NCBI GenBank assembly: GCA_018057635.1
Contig: JAGPDJ010000185.1
Location: forward strand, 1 to 5,642
DNA from: Ferruginibacter sp.
GTDB lineage: Bacteria > Bacteroidota > Bacteroidia > Chitinophagales > Chitinophagaceae
Direction: 5' to 3'
DNA length: 5,642 bases
Shown here: positions 1 through 5,642 of the stretch, piece by piece
Layout: each line of letters begins with the position of its first letter
Position numbering within the stretch: position 1 is the stretch's first letter
Translations under genes and position numbers: made by a program
The notes under the pieces: generated by a model
The model's input: the letters and a program-made list of their open reading frames with translations, nothing else
Databases searched by the model: none
What the model was told of the DNA's origin: nothing

Positions 1-1013
1 ATAGCTTTGAAATGGAACAGCTTATAACAGGCTCATTTGACCCCAATGATAAAAATTGCCTGGAAGGAGATAAGATTGACATTACCAGGGTGGGAGATTA
101 TGTACATTACCTGGTACGGTTTCAAAATACCGGGACAGATGTTGCAGAGAATGTTGTTATAACAGATATACTGGAAAATAATTTCAACTGGAATAGCCTG
201 GTGATATATCAAAGCAGCCATCCTTATAAATTAAAGCAAAGTTCCGGCAATAAGCTCGAGTTTATTTTCGAGGGTATAAACCTGCCTGCTGTAACTGTTG
301 ATGAACCGGGAAGCCATGGCTTTATAGCGTTTAAGGTTAGAACCGCAGCTACACTGGTACTGGGAGATTCTGTAAGGAACAGTGCGGCCATTTACTTTGA
401 TTTCAATTTACCGGTTATCACAAACACAACGAGGTCTGTTATAGATAGTGTGAAAATTATTCCGGTTGGTATTGAATATTTTAAAGGCGTTAAACAATCA
501 GGTAAAAATCTGCTTAACTGGAAAGTGAATTGCACCAGTTTACAGGTAAAATTTAACATTGAAAGAAGTACAGGCGGAAGAAATTTCACCAGCCTGCAAA
601 GCATAACAGCCAGCAATACACGCTGCCTGCAACCATTTGATTTCTCAGATAACAATCCTGCATCGGGCATGAATTATTATCGCATTAAAATGACTGATAT
701 AGACGGTAAAGTAACTTACAGTTCTGTGATCGCCCTGCTAAATAAAAAATCCGGTTTTGAAATTGTGAATCTCACCCCCAATCCTGTTACCAATGAAAAT
801 GCATTGCTTAATATTACTTCTGCTGAGAAGCAAACAGTGAATATTTTAGTAACAGATGCTTCAGGCAAAATAGTACACTCAACCTATCAACCTGTTATTG
901 CAGGTTTTACCCAGGTGAAACTAAATTTCAATAACCTAGCTACTGGCGTATACACGATTGCTGTTTATACAAATGAGGGAGAAAGAAAGACTGTGCAGTT
1001 TATCAAAAAATAG
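1..1013 (+). CDS. T9SS-secreted surface protein, DPNDK module plus sorting domain (5' partial)
   Basis: The reading frame is open to the left edge (first full codon at base 3, reading S-F-E before the first ATG at 12), so this is the C-terminal part of a longer gene and the ATG at 12 is internal. Counting from that ATG: residues 6-145 form a DUF7619-type module with the signatures GSFDPNDK, YLVRFQNTGT, SSHP, SHGFIAFKVR and AAIYFDFNLPVITN. Residues about 150-240 are a beta-rich stretch common before sorting domains in this group (LLNW, FNIERS, NYYRIKMTDIDGK). Residues about 245-333 are a T9SS type A sorting domain (LTPNPV, VTDASGK, LATGVYTIAV, final FIKK). Known for such tails: they direct proteins through the type IX system and are cleaved at the cell surface. 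The role of the mature protein is unknown because its N-terminus is missing. The last 94 residues are identical to the end of the protein at 1634-3664. Confidence 0.88.
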   Translation, partial: SFEMEQLITGSFDPNDKNCLEGDKIDITRVGDYVHYLVRFQNTGTDVAENVVITDILENNFNWNSLVIYQSSHPYKLKQSSGNKLEFIFEGINLPAVTVDEPGSHGFIAFKVRTAATLVLGDSVRNSAAIYFDFNLPVITNTTRSVIDSVKIIPVGIEYFKGVKQSGKNLLNWKVNCTSLQVKFNIERSTGGRNFTSLQSITASNTRCLQPFDFSDNNPASGMNYYRIKMTDIDGKVTYSSVIALLNKKSGFEIVNLTPNPVTNENALLNITSAEKQTVNILVTDASGKIVHSTYQPVIAGFTQVKLNFNNLATGVYTIAVYTNEGERKTVQFIKK

Positions 1014-1023
1014 TGTTTAACCG
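729..1023 (+). repeat. Direct repeat R1, copy 1 (sorting-domain segment)
   Basis: This 295-bp segment matches 3380-3674 at a constant offset of 2651 with only two differences, G827/A3478 and G956/A3607, both silent (Glu and Thr codons). It starts at the ATC of IALLNKK, covers the whole sorting domain and stop codon, and ends 10 bases past the stop, at the ACCG that begins the inverted repeat. Immediately upstream the two genes are clearly diverged, so the left edge is sharp. Confidence 0.95.
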
Positions 1024-1098
1024 GGGAGGCGCAGAGGCGCAGCGTTTAACAAGCGATAAAATGTAATAGTATTCTCTGAGTCTCCGCGCCTCTGCGGT
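1020..1098. repeat. Imperfect inverted repeat of the GCAGAGGCGCAG family
   Basis: The left arm 1020-1044 (begins ACCGGGGAGGCGCAGAGGCG) pairs with the right arm 1074-1098 (ends CGCGCCTCTGCGGT) around a 29-base loop. Nineteen of 25 positions are complementary, with some additional G-T pairs. It lies between the stop of the secreted protein and the start of the truncated alkB copy, and the right arm is followed by A-rich sequence, not a T tract. It may end upstream transcription, but it is mainly a member of a repeat family seen again at 3671-3751, 3917-3940 and 3969-3991. Confidence 0.8.
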
Positions 1099-1117
1099 AA
1101 AAATTAAAGAAATTACT

Positions 1118-1342
1118 TTGCAAATAAGGGTATTTAAATATTTATCTCCCATCAGCATTTACGGGCTGGCAATTCTTGCATTTACTTATACAGGTTTTTA
1201 TACCTGGCTACCCATGGTCTATGCCTGGGTGTTATTGCCTGTTACCGAACTTTTTTTAAAACCTGATGAGCACAATTTGGAAGCGGCAGAAGAGGAATTG
1301 GCTAAAAAGAACAGGTTGTATGTTTATATGCTGTATATCATT
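1118..1342 (+). repeat. Direct repeat R2, copy 1 (alkB 5' end)
   Basis: This segment matches 4016-4240 at offset 2898 with about 13 substitutions in 225 bases and no gaps. Weaker similarity continues a dozen bases further. Similarity also reaches a few bases upstream (TACTTTGCAAATA context and the CTGCGGTAAAAA arm). Confidence 0.92.
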
Positions 1343-1420
1343 TTTCATTTTCTGCCATGGGGCCAAAGACGGCGAGCCATAACAGGTGCTGTTTTTTTAA
1401 ACGGATGGAGATTTTCATGA
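1118..1420 (+). pseudogene. Truncated alkB-like membrane hydroxylase (5' fragment of duplicate)
   Basis: The first 75 codons are a near copy of the intact alkB-family gene at 4016-5098: 71 of 75 residues match, and at DNA level there are about 13 differences over 1118-1342, mostly silent. The same TTG start is used. Homology fades between 1342 and 1354 (YII then FHFLPWG in place of VPFQYVA), and the frame then reads about 25 unrelated residues to a TGA at 1418. Only the first membrane segments survive. All four histidine-rich motifs needed to bind the di-iron centre are missing, so it cannot be a functional hydroxylase. The mostly silent pattern of change suggests both copies were under selection for some time before the break. 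A translated short membrane peptide cannot be excluded. Confidence 0.85.
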
Positions 1421-1513
1421 AGTAAATTTAAGGTAGAACCGGGGTTAGACTTCATAGCTGTTGAAATGTTTAATGGCAGTAAGAAATATATCGCGATCAG
1501 GAAGCCGGTTTAA
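1421..1513 (+). other. Open-frame remnant after the alkB fragment, origin unknown
   Basis: Directly after the TGA at 1418-1420 the same frame stays open for 30 codons to a TAA at 1511-1513. The translation contains VEPGLDFIAVEMFNGSKKY and ends AIRKPV, which reads like a plausible protein end. It has no similarity that I can see to the intact AlkB sequence. It could be the tail of a gene that was joined to the broken alkB copy, or chance. An open run this short is not strong evidence of coding. A terminator-like hairpin starts nine bases before the stop, which fits a former gene end. Confidence 0.25.
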
Positions 1514-1524
1514 CACCGGTTTTT
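1502..1524 (+). terminator. Candidate Rho-independent terminator
   Basis: AAGCCGGT (1502-1509) pairs with ACCGGTTT (1515-1522) with one G-T wobble, around the loop TTAAC, and is followed by further T residues to 1524. The stem is short but GC-centred and the T run is in the expected place. It would end transcription coming from the alkB fragment before the LRR gene. The rest of the gap to 1633 is AT-rich with no clear motif. Confidence 0.45.
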
Positions 1525-1633
1525 ACTGTATATTATATAATCGCTATGTATAGTTATTACTGAATTTAAGTTGTAGATTTATAGAGCCAAAGAGCCAGAA
1601 TAATCCGTATTAATAACTGCTAAAAGTTTGTTT

Positions 1634-3664
1634 ATGAAACAATTTATATCATTGCTTTTTGTATTGTTTGTAATTGGTGCTAAGGCACAAATTGTGAATA
1701 TACCGGATGCGAATTTCAAACAGGCATTAGTAACTTATTCAGATCTGTTTGGAAGAACGATTGACACCAATAATGATGGTGAAATTCAGTATAGTGAGGC
1801 ATTGTTTTTTAGTCAGATTAACGGAGGATATAGTCTGACAATTAACAATAAGAATATCACCGACCTTACTGGTATAAAGGCTTTCAGTTCACTGAATTAT
1901 TTAAATTGTGGCTATAATCAATTGAACAGTTTAGACATCAGTAATATGCCGATTGAGAGTTTATCATGCATCAATAATAACCTTTCATTTGTTAACCTGG
2001 CTGGTTGCGGAAATTTAAGATTTGCTTCAATTGACCATAACCAGCTAAATTCCATTAATCTCACGGGCTTAAATAGTCTGACACAGCTTGGTGTTTCTTA
2101 TAATAATTTTACTTCACTTGATGTGAGTAATGCCCATGGACTTAAAACATTGTATTGTGAGCATAATCAATTAACATCACTTGACCTTAGCCAAAATTCA
2201 ATCAGGTACTTATACTGTGCCAATAATCAACTTACTTCTCTGAACGTAAAGAATAACCAGGCATTTGAATATACAACCAGTTTTCCACCTTTGTATGCTT
2301 CAGGTAATCCCGCACTTCAATATGTATGTGCTGATACTGCTGAAATTTTATTCTTATTGAATTATTTTGTTCAAAACGGAATGAACAATGTGCAGGTAGA
2401 TGCCAACTGCAGCTTTTCAACAAGCGGAGGTTATGGAACAGTGAATGGAGTAGCTAAGGTGGACCTGGATAACAACGGCTGCAATTTAGCTGATAACGGG
2501 AAAGTGATGCTACCATTAAAACTGATCAATGATAATGATACATCACAAAACTTTTTTTTGAAAGCCGATTCTTCCGGAGAATATTCTGTTCATACATATG
2601 CAGGAAATTATTCATTAACAACACTTAATCAAATACCATATTATAATATCAGCCCGGATACCATACATTTTACAACAACAGCCGGAACAACCCAAAATCT
2701 TAATTTTTGTATTACTCCGGATGGTGTACATAATGACCTTGATGTGATCTTCAATTATATTGTTGCATTTGTAAATGATACAACCCGTATGAGGATCATT
2801 TTCAGGAATAAAGGAACGCAGGCATTATCCGGCAATCTGCAGCTTGGTTATGATGACAATAAACTGGATTTTGTGTCTGCAGCCATACCAGTCAGCAGCC
2901 AATCTACAGGTAATTTAACCTGGGAATTTACAAACCTGCAACCATTTGAAACAAGGGTAATTGAGTATGTTTACATGAAAATATTATCTGCTCCAATAAA
3001 TAATATGGGTGATACACTTTCTTTTGTTGCAAGCATAGATTTTCCCGGTATAGATGAAACTCCGTCAGATAATATTTATTTGTATAAGGCAGTAATATCT
3101 CCAAATGTGCTTCCCATTACCATGGAGTATTTAAAAGGAACCAGTCGTTCCGGAAAACACTACCTCAACTGGAAAGCAACCTGTACAAGTTCTCATGCAG
3201 AATTTGTAATTGAAAGTAGTTCAGATGGCAGAACTTTTACTGCAATTGGAAATACAAGTGGAGATTATCTACGGTGCCGGCAACCATTCTACTTTACAGA
3301 TAACAATCCATTAAACGGAGTAAATTTTTACCGTATAAAAATGATAGATATAGATGGCAAAACATCAAACAGTACAACTATCGCCCTGCTAAATAAAAAA
3401 TCCGGTTTTGAAATTGTGAATCTCACCCCCAATCCTGTTACCAATGAAAATGCATTGCTTAATATTACTTCTGCTGAAAAGCAAACAGTGAATATTTTAG
3501 TAACAGATGCTTCAGGCAAAATAGTACACTCAACCTATCAACCTGTTATTGCAGGTTTTACCCAGGTGAAACTAAATTTCAATAACCTAGCTACTGGCGT
3601 ATACACAATTGCTGTTTATACAAATGAGGGAGAAAGAAAGACTGTGCAGTTTATCAAAAAATAG
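1634..3664 (+). CDS. Secreted leucine-rich-repeat protein with T9SS sorting domain
   Basis: The chosen ATG at 1634 gives MKQFISLLFVLFVIGAKAQ, a typical signal peptide; a TTG two codons upstream is possible but less likely. Product 676 residues. Residues 22-60 hold the NIPDANFK motif and a perfect EF-hand-like loop, DTNNDGEIQYSE (44-55). Residues 86-208 are six LRRs of 20-21 residues (pattern LxxLxCxxNQLTSLDLS). Residues 264-332 resemble a small beta-sandwich (GTVNGVAKVDLDNNGCN, then SSGEYSV and AGNYSLTTL). Residues 367-488 are a second beta-rich, DUF11-like region. Residues 500-582 precede the T9SS type A sorting domain (about 588-676). Family knowledge: such proteins are exported by Sec, cross the outer membrane by T9SS and often serve in adhesion or binding; the ligand is not visible. 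It lacks the DPNDK module present in the protein at 1-1013. It is probably monocistronic, with a hairpin repeat directly after the stop. Confidence 0.92.
   Translation: MKQFISLLFVLFVIGAKAQIVNIPDANFKQALVTYSDLFGRTIDTNNDGEIQYSEALFFSQINGGYSLTINNKNITDLTGIKAFSSLNYLNCGYNQLNSLDISNMPIESLSCINNNLSFVNLAGCGNLRFASIDHNQLNSINLTGLNSLTQLGVSYNNFTSLDVSNAHGLKTLYCEHNQLTSLDLSQNSIRYLYCANNQLTSLNVKNNQAFEYTTSFPPLYASGNPALQYVCADTAEILFLLNYFVQNGMNNVQVDANCSFSTSGGYGTVNGVAKVDLDNNGCNLADNGKVMLPLKLINDNDTSQNFFLKADSSGEYSVHTYAGNYSLTTLNQIPYYNISPDTIHFTTTAGTTQNLNFCITPDGVHNDLDVIFNYIVAFVNDTTRMRIIFRNKGTQALSGNLQLGYDDNKLDFVSAAIPVSSQSTGNLTWEFTNLQPFETRVIEYVYMKILSAPINNMGDTLSFVASIDFPGIDETPSDNIYLYKAVISPNVLPITMEYLKGTSRSGKHYLNWKATCTSSHAEFVIESSSDGRTFTAIGNTSGDYLRCRQPFYFTDNNPLNGVNFYRIKMIDIDGKTSNSTTIALLNKKSGFEIVNLTPNPVTNENALLNITSAEKQTVNILVTDASGKIVHSTYQPVIAGFTQVKLNFNNLATGVYTIAVYTNEGERKTVQFIKK
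1937..2257 (+). repeat. Tandem LRR-coding units within the secreted protein
   Basis: Successive units of about 60-63 bases encode the leucine-rich repeats, recognisable by the recurring N-(Q/N)-L-x-S-(L/I/V) core (NQLNSLDIS, NNLSFVNLA, NQLNSINLT, NNFTSLDVS, NQLTSLDLS, NQLTSLNVK). Units 5 and 6 are the most alike (LYCEHNQLTSLDLSQN and LYCANNQLTSLNVKNN), suggesting the most recent internal duplication. Edges are approximate. Confidence 0.75.
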
Positions 3665-3674
3665 TGTTTAACCG
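3380..3674 (+). repeat. Direct repeat R1, copy 2 (sorting-domain segment)
   Basis: This is the partner of 729-1023, 293 of 295 bases identical, both differences silent. It covers the last 94 codons, the TAG stop and 10 bases beyond. The 88 residues before it are only about 51% identical between the two proteins, against 100% inside it. Confidence 0.95.
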
Positions 3675-3751
3675 CAGAGACGCAGAGACGCGGTGTTCAC
3701 AATGAATATAAAATTATGAATGTAAACGCTGCGTCTCTGCGCCTCCGCGGT
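3671..3751. repeat. Long inverted repeat, likely terminator of the LRR gene
   Basis: Arms 3671-3695 (begins ACCGCAGAGACGCAGAGACG) and 3727-3751 (ends GCGCCTCCGCGGT) match at 21 of 25 positions, with two more as G-T pairs, around a 31-base loop. It begins seven bases after the stop codon and is followed by eight T residues (3753-3760), so on the plus strand it could work as an intrinsic terminator despite the large loop. The arms are built from an 8-base unit (GCAGAGAC). Confidence 0.75.
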
Positions 3752-3757
3752 ATTTTT

Positions 3758-3847
3758 TTTCACCACAAATCACTAAGGCGGAAAGCAGTACAAAGGGCAT
3801 TCATTCCAAAAACCTTGCGTCTTTGCCCCTTTGCGGCTTTGCGTGAA
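3758..3847. repeat. Second inverted repeat, TTTGCG/CACAAA family
   Basis: The left arm starts TTTCACCACAAATCACTAAG and the right arm (about 3813-3847) ends CCCCTTTGCGGCTTTGCG then TGAA. The arms are imperfectly complementary (the TTTCAC ends and several AAAG/CTTT blocks). The right arm has an 8-base rhythm of TTTGC (TTTGCCCC, TTTGCGGC, TTTGCGTG), the same period as the neighbouring GCAGAGAC repeat. Function unknown. Confidence 0.6.
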
Positions 3848-3916: not shown

Positions 3917-3940
3917 CTGCGTCTCCCCACCTCTGCAGTA
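3917..3940. repeat. Isolated repeat arm (CTGCGTCTCC type)
   Basis: CTGCGTCTCCCCACCTCTGC followed by AGTA is a degenerate copy (about 18 of 23 positions) of the right arm of the inverted repeat ending at 3751. I see no left partner beside it, so it is a half element or part of a decayed one. Confidence 0.6.
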
Positions 3941-3954
3941 TTCCCAGGAAATAT

Positions 3955-3968: not shown

Positions 3969-3991
3969 CCGCACCTCAGCGCCGCTGCGGT
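3969..3991. repeat. Isolated repeat arm next to the alkB start
   Basis: CCGCACCTCAGCGCCGCTGC followed by GGT is another degenerate right arm (about 17 of 23 positions to 3729-3751). It is followed by an A-rich stretch and the TACTTTGCAAATA start region, exactly as the right arm at 1076-1098 is before the truncated alkB copy. So it is the positional equivalent of that arm. Confidence 0.6.
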
Positions 3992-4015
3992 AAAAAAAAT
4001 AAAAAAGAAAATACT

Positions 4016-4240
4016 TTGCAAATACGGGTATTTAAATATTTATCTCCCATCAGCATTTACGGGCTGGCAATTCTTGCATTTACTTATACAGGTTTTTATA
4101 CCTGGCTTCCCATGATATATGCCTGGGTGTTATTGCCCCTGACCGAACTTTTTTTAAAACCTGATGAGCACAACATGGAAGCGGCAGAAGAGGAATTGGC
4201 CAAAAAGAACAGGTTGTATGATTACATGCTATATATCATT
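4016..4240 (+). repeat. Direct repeat R2, copy 2 (alkB 5' end)
   Basis: This is the partner of 1118-1342 at offset 2898, about 94% identical without gaps. Four codons differ in meaning (I/V, L/V, M/L, D/V); the other changes are silent. Confidence 0.92.
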
Positions 4241-5098
4241 GTGCCTTTTCAGTATGTCGCTTTGTTTTATTTTTTAATTTCAATGGGGCAGGCAGAACTA
4301 ACAGTGTGGGATAAAGCGGGCAGGATACTCAGCATGGGATTGTTGTGTGGTACATTTGGCATCAACGTGGCACATGAACTCGGGCACCGGGTTAATAAGT
4401 TTGAACAGTTCCTGGCAAAAGCACTATTGGCAACATCGCTCTATATTCATTTCTTTATAGAGCACAATAAGGGCCATCATAAAAATGTGGCCACACCCGA
4501 AGATCCCAGTTCTGCCAGGTACAATGAACCGGTGTATACTTTTTATTTCCGCACCATTATTTTCTCTTACCTCTCTGCCTGGAAAATTGCCAATGATGAT
4601 TGCCGTAAAAAAGGGAAAAGCATTTTTAGTTTACACAATGAAATGGTACAGGCACATATCGTTCAAATGATCCTGGTTGCTGTTATTTATTTTTTTGCAG
4701 GTTGGCTGATATGTTTGTATTTTATTGCTGCGGCATTTATTGGCATTGCATTGCTGGAAACGGTTAATTACATTGAGCATTATGGCCTCCAAAGAAAACA
4801 AACAGGAGCAGGGAATTACGAAAGAACCTTGCCTCATCACAGCTGGAACAGCAACCACATATTGGGAAGGATCATGTTGTTTGAACTGAGCCGGCACAGC
4901 GACCATCATTACATGGCCAGCAGGAAATACCAGGTTCTGCGTCATCACGAAAATGCCCCGCAATTACCCACCGGCTACCCGGGCAGCATGATACTTGCCA
5001 TGATTCCACCGGCATGGTTTTTTGTAATGAACAGGAAAATAAAAGCAGAAAATGGAAAGCGTTTTGAAACCTCACCCCAACACTCTCCCCCGAAATAA
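4016..5098 (+). CDS. alkB: AlkB-family alkane 1-monooxygenase (membrane di-iron hydroxylase)
   Basis: The 360-residue product carries the complete histidine signature of AlkB-type hydroxylases: HELGH (120-124), EHNKGHHKNVATPEDP (149-164), the diagnostic HYG motif NYIEHYGL (251-258) and LSRHSDHH (291-298), with SWNSNH just before (276-281). Hydrophobic segments near 11-47, 73-118, 130-148 and 215-250 fit the usual six-helix inner-membrane fold. Family knowledge: AlkB hydroxylates the terminal carbon of medium-chain alkanes using O2 and electrons from rubredoxin. The real substrate here is not shown, and no electron donor gene lies in the window. The start is TTG; no in-frame ATG exists before residue 33, and the same TTG is conserved in the truncated copy. 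No Shine-Dalgarno is visible, only an A-rich leader. The last nine or so residues (TSPQHSPPK) are encoded by an intergenic-type repeat and are probably not functional. Length is slightly below the roughly 400 of classical AlkB. Confidence 0.93.
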   Translation: MQIRVFKYLSPISIYGLAILAFTYTGFYTWLPMIYAWVLLPLTELFLKPDEHNMEAAEEELAKKNRLYDYMLYIIVPFQYVALFYFLISMGQAELTVWDKAGRILSMGLLCGTFGINVAHELGHRVNKFEQFLAKALLATSLYIHFFIEHNKGHHKNVATPEDPSSARYNEPVYTFYFRTIIFSYLSAWKIANDDCRKKGKSIFSLHNEMVQAHIVQMILVAVIYFFAGWLICLYFIAAAFIGIALLETVNYIEHYGLQRKQTGAGNYERTLPHHSWNSNHILGRIMLFELSRHSDHHYMASRKYQVLRHHENAPQLPTGYPGSMILAMIPPAWFFVMNRKIKAENGKRFETSPQHSPPK

Positions 5099-5152: not shown

Positions 5153-5222
5153 GTATTTAAAACAATTCGTGTAATTCGTGGTTGTAATTCGTGTTATATG
5201 TATTTAAAATAATTCGTGTAAT
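5153..5222. repeat. AATTCGTG repeat cluster between convergent genes
   Basis: A 23-base direct repeat, GTATTTAAAACAATTCGTGT then AAT, occurs at 5153-5175 and again at 5200-5222 with a single C/T difference. The core AATTCGTG occurs four times (5164, 5173, 5186 and 5211). It fills the space between the alkB end and the serS stop codon. The spacing of the core is uneven (9, 13 and 25 bases), so it is neither a CRISPR nor a simple tandem repeat. Confidence 0.8.
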
Positions 5223-5223
5223 C

Positions 5224-5642
5224 TTATTCCCCCTTTTCAATCTTCGCTCCCCCAAAATAATGCTGTATTGCATTTGGAAGATGTATTCCATCCTCAGCCT
5301 GGTTGTTTTCCAGTAATGCCGCCATGATCCTTGGCAGGGCAAGTGAAGAACCATTCAGGGAATGCAGCAGTTGTGTTTTACCTGATTCGTCTTTGTAACG
5401 GATCTTCATCCGGTTGGTCTGGAAACTTTCAAAATTGCTGACAGAACTTACTTCCAGCCATTTTTGCTGGGCTGCACTGAATACTTCAAAATCGTAGGTA
5501 AGTGCAGAAGTAAAGCTCATATCGCCACCGCATAAACGCAGTATCCGGTAAGGTAATTCCAGGAACTGTAACAGGCGTTCCACATGGTGAACCATTTCTT
5601 CCAGGGTATCATAGCTGTTTTGCGGGTGAACCAATTGTATGA
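5224..5642 (-). CDS. serS: Seryl-tRNA synthetase, C-terminal part (5' partial at window edge)
   Basis: The frame is open to the right edge and the visible piece is about 138 codons of the class II catalytic domain. It starts at ...IQLVHPQNSY, just after where motif 2 should lie, and includes LCGGDMSFTSALTYDFEV, the serine-site region WLEVSSVSNFESFQTNR, YKDESGKTQ, and motif 3 NGSSLALPRIMAALLENNQ with its ATP-binding arginine at 5329-5331. The enzyme charges tRNA-Ser with serine in the cytoplasm (ATP + serine + tRNA). The N-terminal coiled-coil arm and motif 1 lie outside the window. The C-terminus ends HYFGGAKIEKGE, slightly extended past the conserved fold. It is convergent with alkB, separated by 125 bases of repeats. 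The TTG at 5632-5634 is an internal leucine codon, not the start. Confidence 0.95.
   Translation of the reverse strand, partial: IQLVHPQNSYDTLEEMVHHVERLLQFLELPYRILRLCGGDMSFTSALTYDFEVFSAAQQKWLEVSSVSNFESFQTNRMKIRYKDESGKTQLLHSLNGSSLALPRIMAALLENNQAEDGIHLPNAIQHYFGGAKIEKGE

Follow-up and report, generated by a model that had tools for sequence, protein, structure and literature searches.

The window considered here, a stretch of 5,642 nucleotides of Ferruginibacter sp. DNA (contig JAGPDJ010000185.1), holds two tandem genes, gene 1 and gene 2, which encode predicted substrates of the type IX secretion system (T9SS) and end in sorting tails that are almost identical at the DNA level, while the linker domains directly ahead of these tails have diverged. 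The explanation that we regard as probable is gene conversion of the tails between old tandem paralogs, with gene 2 as the probable donor, atop an older insertion-duplication at the neighboring desaturase gene.

The first-pass annotation of the window had described a step from 51% identity (45 of 88 residues) to 100% identity over 94 residues, with 293 of 295 bases matching and both differences silent, and recomputation reproduces all of these values. The two copies of the tract, 729-1023 and 3380-3674, differ at 827 and 956 in gene 1 numbering, and 92 of the 94 third codon positions of the tail are identical; in the linker (465-728 against 3116-3379) this falls to 40 of 88 third positions and 165 of 264 bases. 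The first mismatches beyond the tract lie at 728 (G/T) upstream and at 1024 (G/C) downstream. The end of the identity 10 bases past the stop codon (1011-1013 in gene 1), at an inverted repeat, was also reproduced, and falls 4 bases into the first arm of hairpin 1. When only codons with identical residues are permuted, the best patch lies in the last 101 residues with p = 5e-5, the lowest value that 20,000 permutations allow. The hallmark of interlocus gene conversion, a sharp-edged tract of silent-site identity in otherwise diverged paralogs, is present in this pair. The features of the window, with strand in brackets, are as follows.

3..1013 (+): gene 1, an open reading frame (ORF) with its 5' end beyond the window; DUF7619 (about 39-434), linker domain and T9SS sorting tail
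465..728 (+): linker beta domain of gene 1, not homogenized; 45/88 residues the same as in gene 2
729..1023 (+): homogenized tract copy 1, probable recipient; last linker-domain strand, sorting tail, stop codon and 10 bases
1020..1101 (+): CGCAGAG-type hairpin 1; inverted repeats, minimum free energy (MFE) -37.4 kcal/mol, z -4.8
1118..1342 (+): truncated 5' stump of a desaturase gene; first 75 codons, the frame continuing to a stop at 1418-1420
1634..3664 (+): gene 2, an ORF with a signal-peptide-like start, leucine-rich repeats (LRR), linker domain and T9SS sorting tail, without DUF7619
3116..3379 (+): linker beta domain of gene 2; AlphaFold2 model of 3116-3661
3380..3674 (+): homogenized tract copy 2, probable donor; DNA identity to 729..1023
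3671..3754 (+): CGCAGAG-type hairpin 2; inverted repeats, MFE -48.2 kcal/mol, z -9.0
4016..5098 (+): full-length membrane desaturase-type gene (PF00487, E 1.8e-25), source family of the stump
5224..5640 (-): 3' end of serS (TIGR00414, E 7.8e-44), a conserved neighbor convergent with the desaturase gene

Both genes carry a T9SS type A sorting domain at the C-terminus, with both models scoring above their curated cut-offs: PF18962 reaches 32.7 bits in gene 1 and 31.1 bits in gene 2 (cut-off 27), and TIGR04183 reaches 32.8 and 30.9 bits (cut-off 23). Gene 1 also matches PF24595 (E 4e-52) and gene 2 matches LRR_4. Both are predicted, from their sequences, to be exported by the T9SS and attached to the cell surface. 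The earlier description of two secreted proteins holds for gene 2 through its signal-peptide-like start, which was judged by eye, as was the choice of the ATG at 1634 as start codon a matter of judgment. For gene 1, whose own start lies beyond the window, secretion is suggested by its close, full-length relative P0011 (1001 residues; LRR, DUF7619 and tail).

An AlphaFold2 model of the linker and tail of gene 2, built from an 11-row alignment, has a predicted local distance difference test score (pLDDT) of 93.8 and places strands in residues 2-93 and then 98-181. On this model the 5' break would fall at residue 89, the start of strand 89-93 and 16 residues ahead of the Pfam tail match. A search of solved structures returned no match to linker plus tail; the linker domain may be fibronectin-like.

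Conflict between linker and tail trees

Relatives of both genes were gathered and 22 rows aligned, with the window genes entered as WG1 and WG2. The linker tree groups gene 2 with P0002, P0007 and P0003, and gene 1 with P0125, each at 100/99, and the linker data reject a single clade of WG1, P0125, WG2, P0002 and P0007 (p 0.00085). The tail tree splits these five rows, together with P0001, P0011 and the long-branched P0242, from the 14 other rows, again at 100/99. Topology tests were run without P0001 and P0011, which are the same or nearly the same as kept rows, and without P0242 on account of its long branch; the tail test also left out WG1. The disagreement between tail and linker-domain trees indicates that tails have been exchanged between old paralogs.

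Protein comparisons bear on the direction of copying. Gene 1 and its relative P0125 differ at 3 of 92 linker residues and 16 of 94 tail residues (p 0.003), and gene 2 and P0002 differ at 17 of 92 and 8 of 94, respectively (p 0.054), which fits plain descent. As these protein-level comparisons both point that way, gene 2 was probably the donor and gene 1 the recipient, after gene 1 and P0125 had split. P0125 and P0002 are far more alike in the tail (14 of 94 residues different) than in the linker (43 of 92; p 3e-6), so that an earlier round of tail homogenization is likely to have preceded the present one.

Probable tail conversion among related genomes

The genome-wide test for conversion tracts that the first-pass annotation had proposed was run on relatives, namely the 93 genomes of the Genome Taxonomy Database (GTDB) genus of the nearest desaturase relative. 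Matches to linker plus tail at E <= 1e-20 are present in 54 of the 93, often in adjacent genes (at most 36 candidates were scored per genome). The comparison set comprised 93 genes from 53 genomes, drawn from loci L081-L172, which include 28 regions and earlier loci; hits ending ahead of query residue 150 were dropped, as were frames that were shorter than 170 residues or cut off by the edge of a locus. For adjacent pairs (n=24) the median identity of the tails is 50%, against 27% for non-adjacent pairs of the same genome (n=68) and 28% between genomes (n=4,186). Among genes with an adjacent paralog, the most similar tail belongs to that neighbor in 16 of 36 cases, and the most similar body in 7 of 33 (p 0.046).

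A silent-site patch test with a threshold of p < 0.01 was positive in 4 of the 24 adjacent pairs and in none of the 68 non-adjacent same-genome pairs (p 0.004), with 4 positives among 400 cross-genome pairs sampled from the 4,186. When 330 or 600 residues are used, 3 to 5 of the adjacent and 0 or 1 of the non-adjacent pairs are positive. Two of the four positive adjacent pairs are in genome G009, one is in G363 and one in G019; their tracts span different parts of the last 175 residues, with limits that vary between pairs. In the first G009 pair the DNA is 88-100% identical in the middle of the module and 60% identical over the last 20 codons, the tract ending inside the tail.

Several arrangements of the module were observed alongside these tests. 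One locus of G009 (L146, 4083-16457) has four tandem T9SS genes with unlike N-termini, whose C-terminal modules are shared within each of two neighboring pairs. At another locus (L145), a 191-residue frame at 7688-8260, barely more than linker and tail, lies directly upstream of a 707-residue paralog (8476-10596) with which it shares 74% tail identity; the short frame may be an orphan sorting module or a gene remnant. P0278, P0284 and P0332, proteins with a G8-type domain (PF10162; for P0284 a precomputed label), have a C-terminal stretch 52-54% identical to the linker and tail of gene 1, which indicates that the module is used on unrelated bodies.

The desaturase block, the hairpin repeat and competing explanations

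The first-pass annotation had described replacement of just the sorting tail, a description that needs qualifying. It overlooked that gene 1 begins beyond the window and that there is a second duplicated block, 1099-1352 against 3997-4250, 92% identical and corresponding to the 5' end of the desaturase gene. Tail, hairpin and desaturase 5' end are present twice, contiguous and in the same order, with the hairpin and 225 desaturase bases doubled at greater divergence than the tail. The desaturase similarity begins at about 1107 (against about 4005) and stops at 1342-1352; the stump has no Pfam match, and it differs from 4016-4239 of the full gene, which we take to be AlkB-like, at 13 of 224 bases. 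Only 4 or 5 of these 13 differences are replacements (p 0.011 or 0.043), as if both desaturase copies had been functional while diverging, and the stump may be the remnant of a second desaturase allele. From 1024 on, hairpins 1 and 2 share 58 of 76 aligned bases. Because the stump changes are mostly silent and the hairpins have diverged to this extent, two layers are suggested, an older insertion-duplication and a younger tail conversion; the homogenized tail would then be the most recent part of a longer duplication that takes in tail, hairpin and the first 75 desaturase codons.

Searching with the desaturase gene found at least 570 related loci, the best 80 of which were kept. The nearest are in Ferruginibacter-type Chitinophagaceae metagenome-assembled genomes, the best being 78% identical among the matches listed. 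Among these best 80 of at least 570 loci, serS lies within the examined flank at 30, none matches the body or tail of gene 2, and three match the body of gene 1 weakly (27-34% identity over 70-105 residues). A divergent gene pair precedes the desaturase gene in 9 of the 10 nearest loci inspected; it matches Pfam DUF1800 and DUF1501 in the locus L001 and was recognized by eye in the other eight. The two T9SS genes at the desaturase locus look like an insertion, with the region upstream of gene 1 lying beyond the window.

In the mechanism that we favor, genes 1 and 2 would be neighboring T9SS substrates of old paralogous origin, and homologous gene conversion from one nearby copy to the other would recently have homogenized their sorting tails. 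The tract limits would mark where the copies were already too different, at the diverged linker domain upstream and the diverged hairpins downstream; conversion would thus be confined to the parts that are still alike, the constrained tail module being the part that stays alike. In the older event, a second desaturase allele together with gene 2 would have come to lie downstream of the hairpin and desaturase start that belonged to gene 1; the stump would be what remains of that desaturase start. A plausible route would be uptake of related DNA, with homologous recombination at the desaturase/serS end and illegitimate joining at the other. What points to such homology-facilitated illegitimate recombination here is the stop of similarity at 1342-1352 and the few stump replacements, suggestive of two alleles; no donor was found.

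The hairpins themselves are supported by their folding z scores and by the motif count, with 10 matches in the window where 0.01 would be expected. Whole and half CGCAGAG-type copies crowd the intergenic spaces, at 1020-1101, 3671-3754, 3829-3843, 3917-3942 and 3975-3989. An exact 16-mer of the repeat occurs in 1 of the 93 genomes, and a 19-mer with up to three mismatches in 25 of 93, with 1 to 11 copies each; a reversed-pattern control for the 19-mer was uninformative because the pattern is mirror-symmetric. The 15-letter sequence of the repeat was not found in literature text. Eleven repeat loci were inspected in relatives, two of them representing the same place, and no linker or tail match was found in any. 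At five places the repeat begins within about 60 bases past the end of an ORF, the genes just ahead being GAPDH (twice), fmt, a papain-type peptidase and a frame beside surE.

Four explanations of the tails were weighed together. The first-pass annotation had proposed recent gene conversion or a cassette-like replacement instead of simple descent, and it is the conversion part that is sustained, by the silent sites, the tree conflict, P0125 and the four positive pairs. A dedicated cassette, in which tails move as modules by site-specific or repeat-guided recombination with the GCAGAGAC hairpin as 3' boundary, would account for the identity stopping 4 bases into a hairpin and for linker and tail modules on proteins with a G8-like domain. 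It is nonetheless highly improbable, as the repeat adjoins none of the four other positive pairs (the closest copy, at the G363 pair, is about 5 kb away), tract limits vary, the repeat follows genes without sorting tails in relatives, and no recombinase gene is present among the five window ORFs scanned for family matches with Pfam and TIGR models. The suggestion that tails are modules bounded on the 3' side by this repeat is therefore not supported, and the proposed look for further near-identical tails beside it found none at the four pairs. As a genus-wide tail boundary the repeat was rejected; the most fitting view of the GCAGAGAC element is that of a hairpin dispersed through intergenic regions, at which the tract stops here because the two hairpin copies have diverged, and not that of a recombination site. 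It is equally hard to credit that short-read assembly created the second tail in error or that functional constraint accounts for the likeness of the tails. Sorting tails are constrained, and a 295-base repeat could mislead a short-read assembly, the method of which is unstated in the record. Protein-level constraint, however, does not keep silent sites alike, two bases and both flanks distinguish the copies, and the representatives P0001 (an 11-member cluster with the gene 2 body) and P0011 (an 18-member cluster with the gene 1 body) carry the same tail. An artefact is further disfavored because a wrong join at a repeat could swap flanks but not create identity.

A more serious competitor, which we still consider unlikely, is one recent segmental copy. 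It would have carried the tail of gene 2, with its hairpin and the start of the desaturase gene, to a position after the linker of gene 1, as could happen when a break is repaired by invasion within the tail and a join without homology near 1342. The differences between the copies would then have built up later, as selection on the stump was relaxed and the hairpins changed fast. The contiguity and common order of the three parts suit such a copy. Against it, stump and tail have diverged to different degrees (13/224 against 2/295 differences, p 0.0008; at silent sites only, 7/47 against 2/67, p 0.03), the stump differences are mostly silent, as under selection in both copies, and the hairpins share only 58 of 76 aligned bases. 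Conversion atop an older insertion-duplication is preferred, and several points weigh against it. Were the stump to have evolved neutrally from the start, tail and stump could be of the same age by their difference counts, and the data would not reject a single event (2 of the 15 differences fall in the tail, p 0.08). No tract was found in the 20 other adjacent pairs of the 24, and the patch test on the last 182 residues only is positive in 0 or 1 of the 24; the array regions were also picked for their listed adjacent hits, so that 4 of 24 is not a population frequency. The tail data reject the linker's gene 2 clade including P0003 only at p 0.029 and are compatible with a clade of WG2, P0002 and P0007 (p 0.44), and P0125 could itself be a recipient.

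Known systems and wider meaning

The usual view of T9SS tails is that they are simple sorting signals, alike through function or descent. If neighboring tails are converted, the likeness of tails within a genome would be no evidence of common descent of the whole proteins, and tail-based trees would mislead. Recombination could supply a functional export address to a new body that arises next to a substrate already in place, and it becomes testable whether each genome's tails are adapted to its own sorting machinery. A broader and more speculative reading, which we rate as doubtful, is that adjacent T9SS substrates of the genus have constant ends (the sorting module, to which the signal peptide may be added at the locus of the window) and a variable middle, with recurrent within-genome conversion keeping the module matched while bodies diversify, so that a local array would be a display system with a genome-specific export address. 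Over the N-terminal 29 residues, gene 2 has 27 in common with P0011, the relative of gene 1, and 22 with its own relative P0002. Set against this, at least 20 of the first 45 residues are common in only 3 of 13 other adjacent pairs with readable starts (14 tried), and gene 1's own 5' end is beyond the window.

Several known systems offer parallels. Domain-limited gene conversion between bacterial paralogs is described for domain 3 of RF1 and RF2, including in Bacteroidia, where it is likewise limited to a domain whose function is common to both paralogs and is revealed by within-gene conflict (PMC4530459); those are essential translation factors, whereas the present genes are adjacent and encode surface proteins, with a recent silent-identity tract and varying limits. 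A second parallel is found in the gingipains and HagA of Porphyromonas gingivalis, also T9SS substrates from this phylum, which have modules in common and exchange them through domain rearrangement and allelic exchange, with gene conversion proposed (PMC5266723). The exchanges treated in the accessible parts of that account concern adhesin domains and alleles between strains, and not tail conversion between tandem paralogs. In the portions of the open literature covered (PMC5266723, PMC5808330, PMC5714932, PMC7323717 and PMC4530459), T9SS tail conversion between tandem paralogs is not described.

Orphan gene pieces in immunity arrays of the Vibrio type VI secretion system have been ascribed to homology-facilitated illegitimate recombination (PMC5361080; mechanism PMC3240628), with an insertion anchored by homology at one end that leaves a displaced remnant of the old neighbor (PMC5361080); the remnant here is a desaturase stump, and no donor strain was found. 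Concerted evolution in prokaryotes, reported as long-lasting and affecting genes of key pathways, makes paralogs of one genome more alike than orthologs (PMC6053082), as for the present tails, but only a C-terminal segment is affected here.

Among the remaining features of the window, an Rfam scan matched no families. Between the desaturase gene and serS, at 5153-5222, are short direct repeats of the AATTCGTGTAAT type, which resemble another dispersed intergenic repeat.

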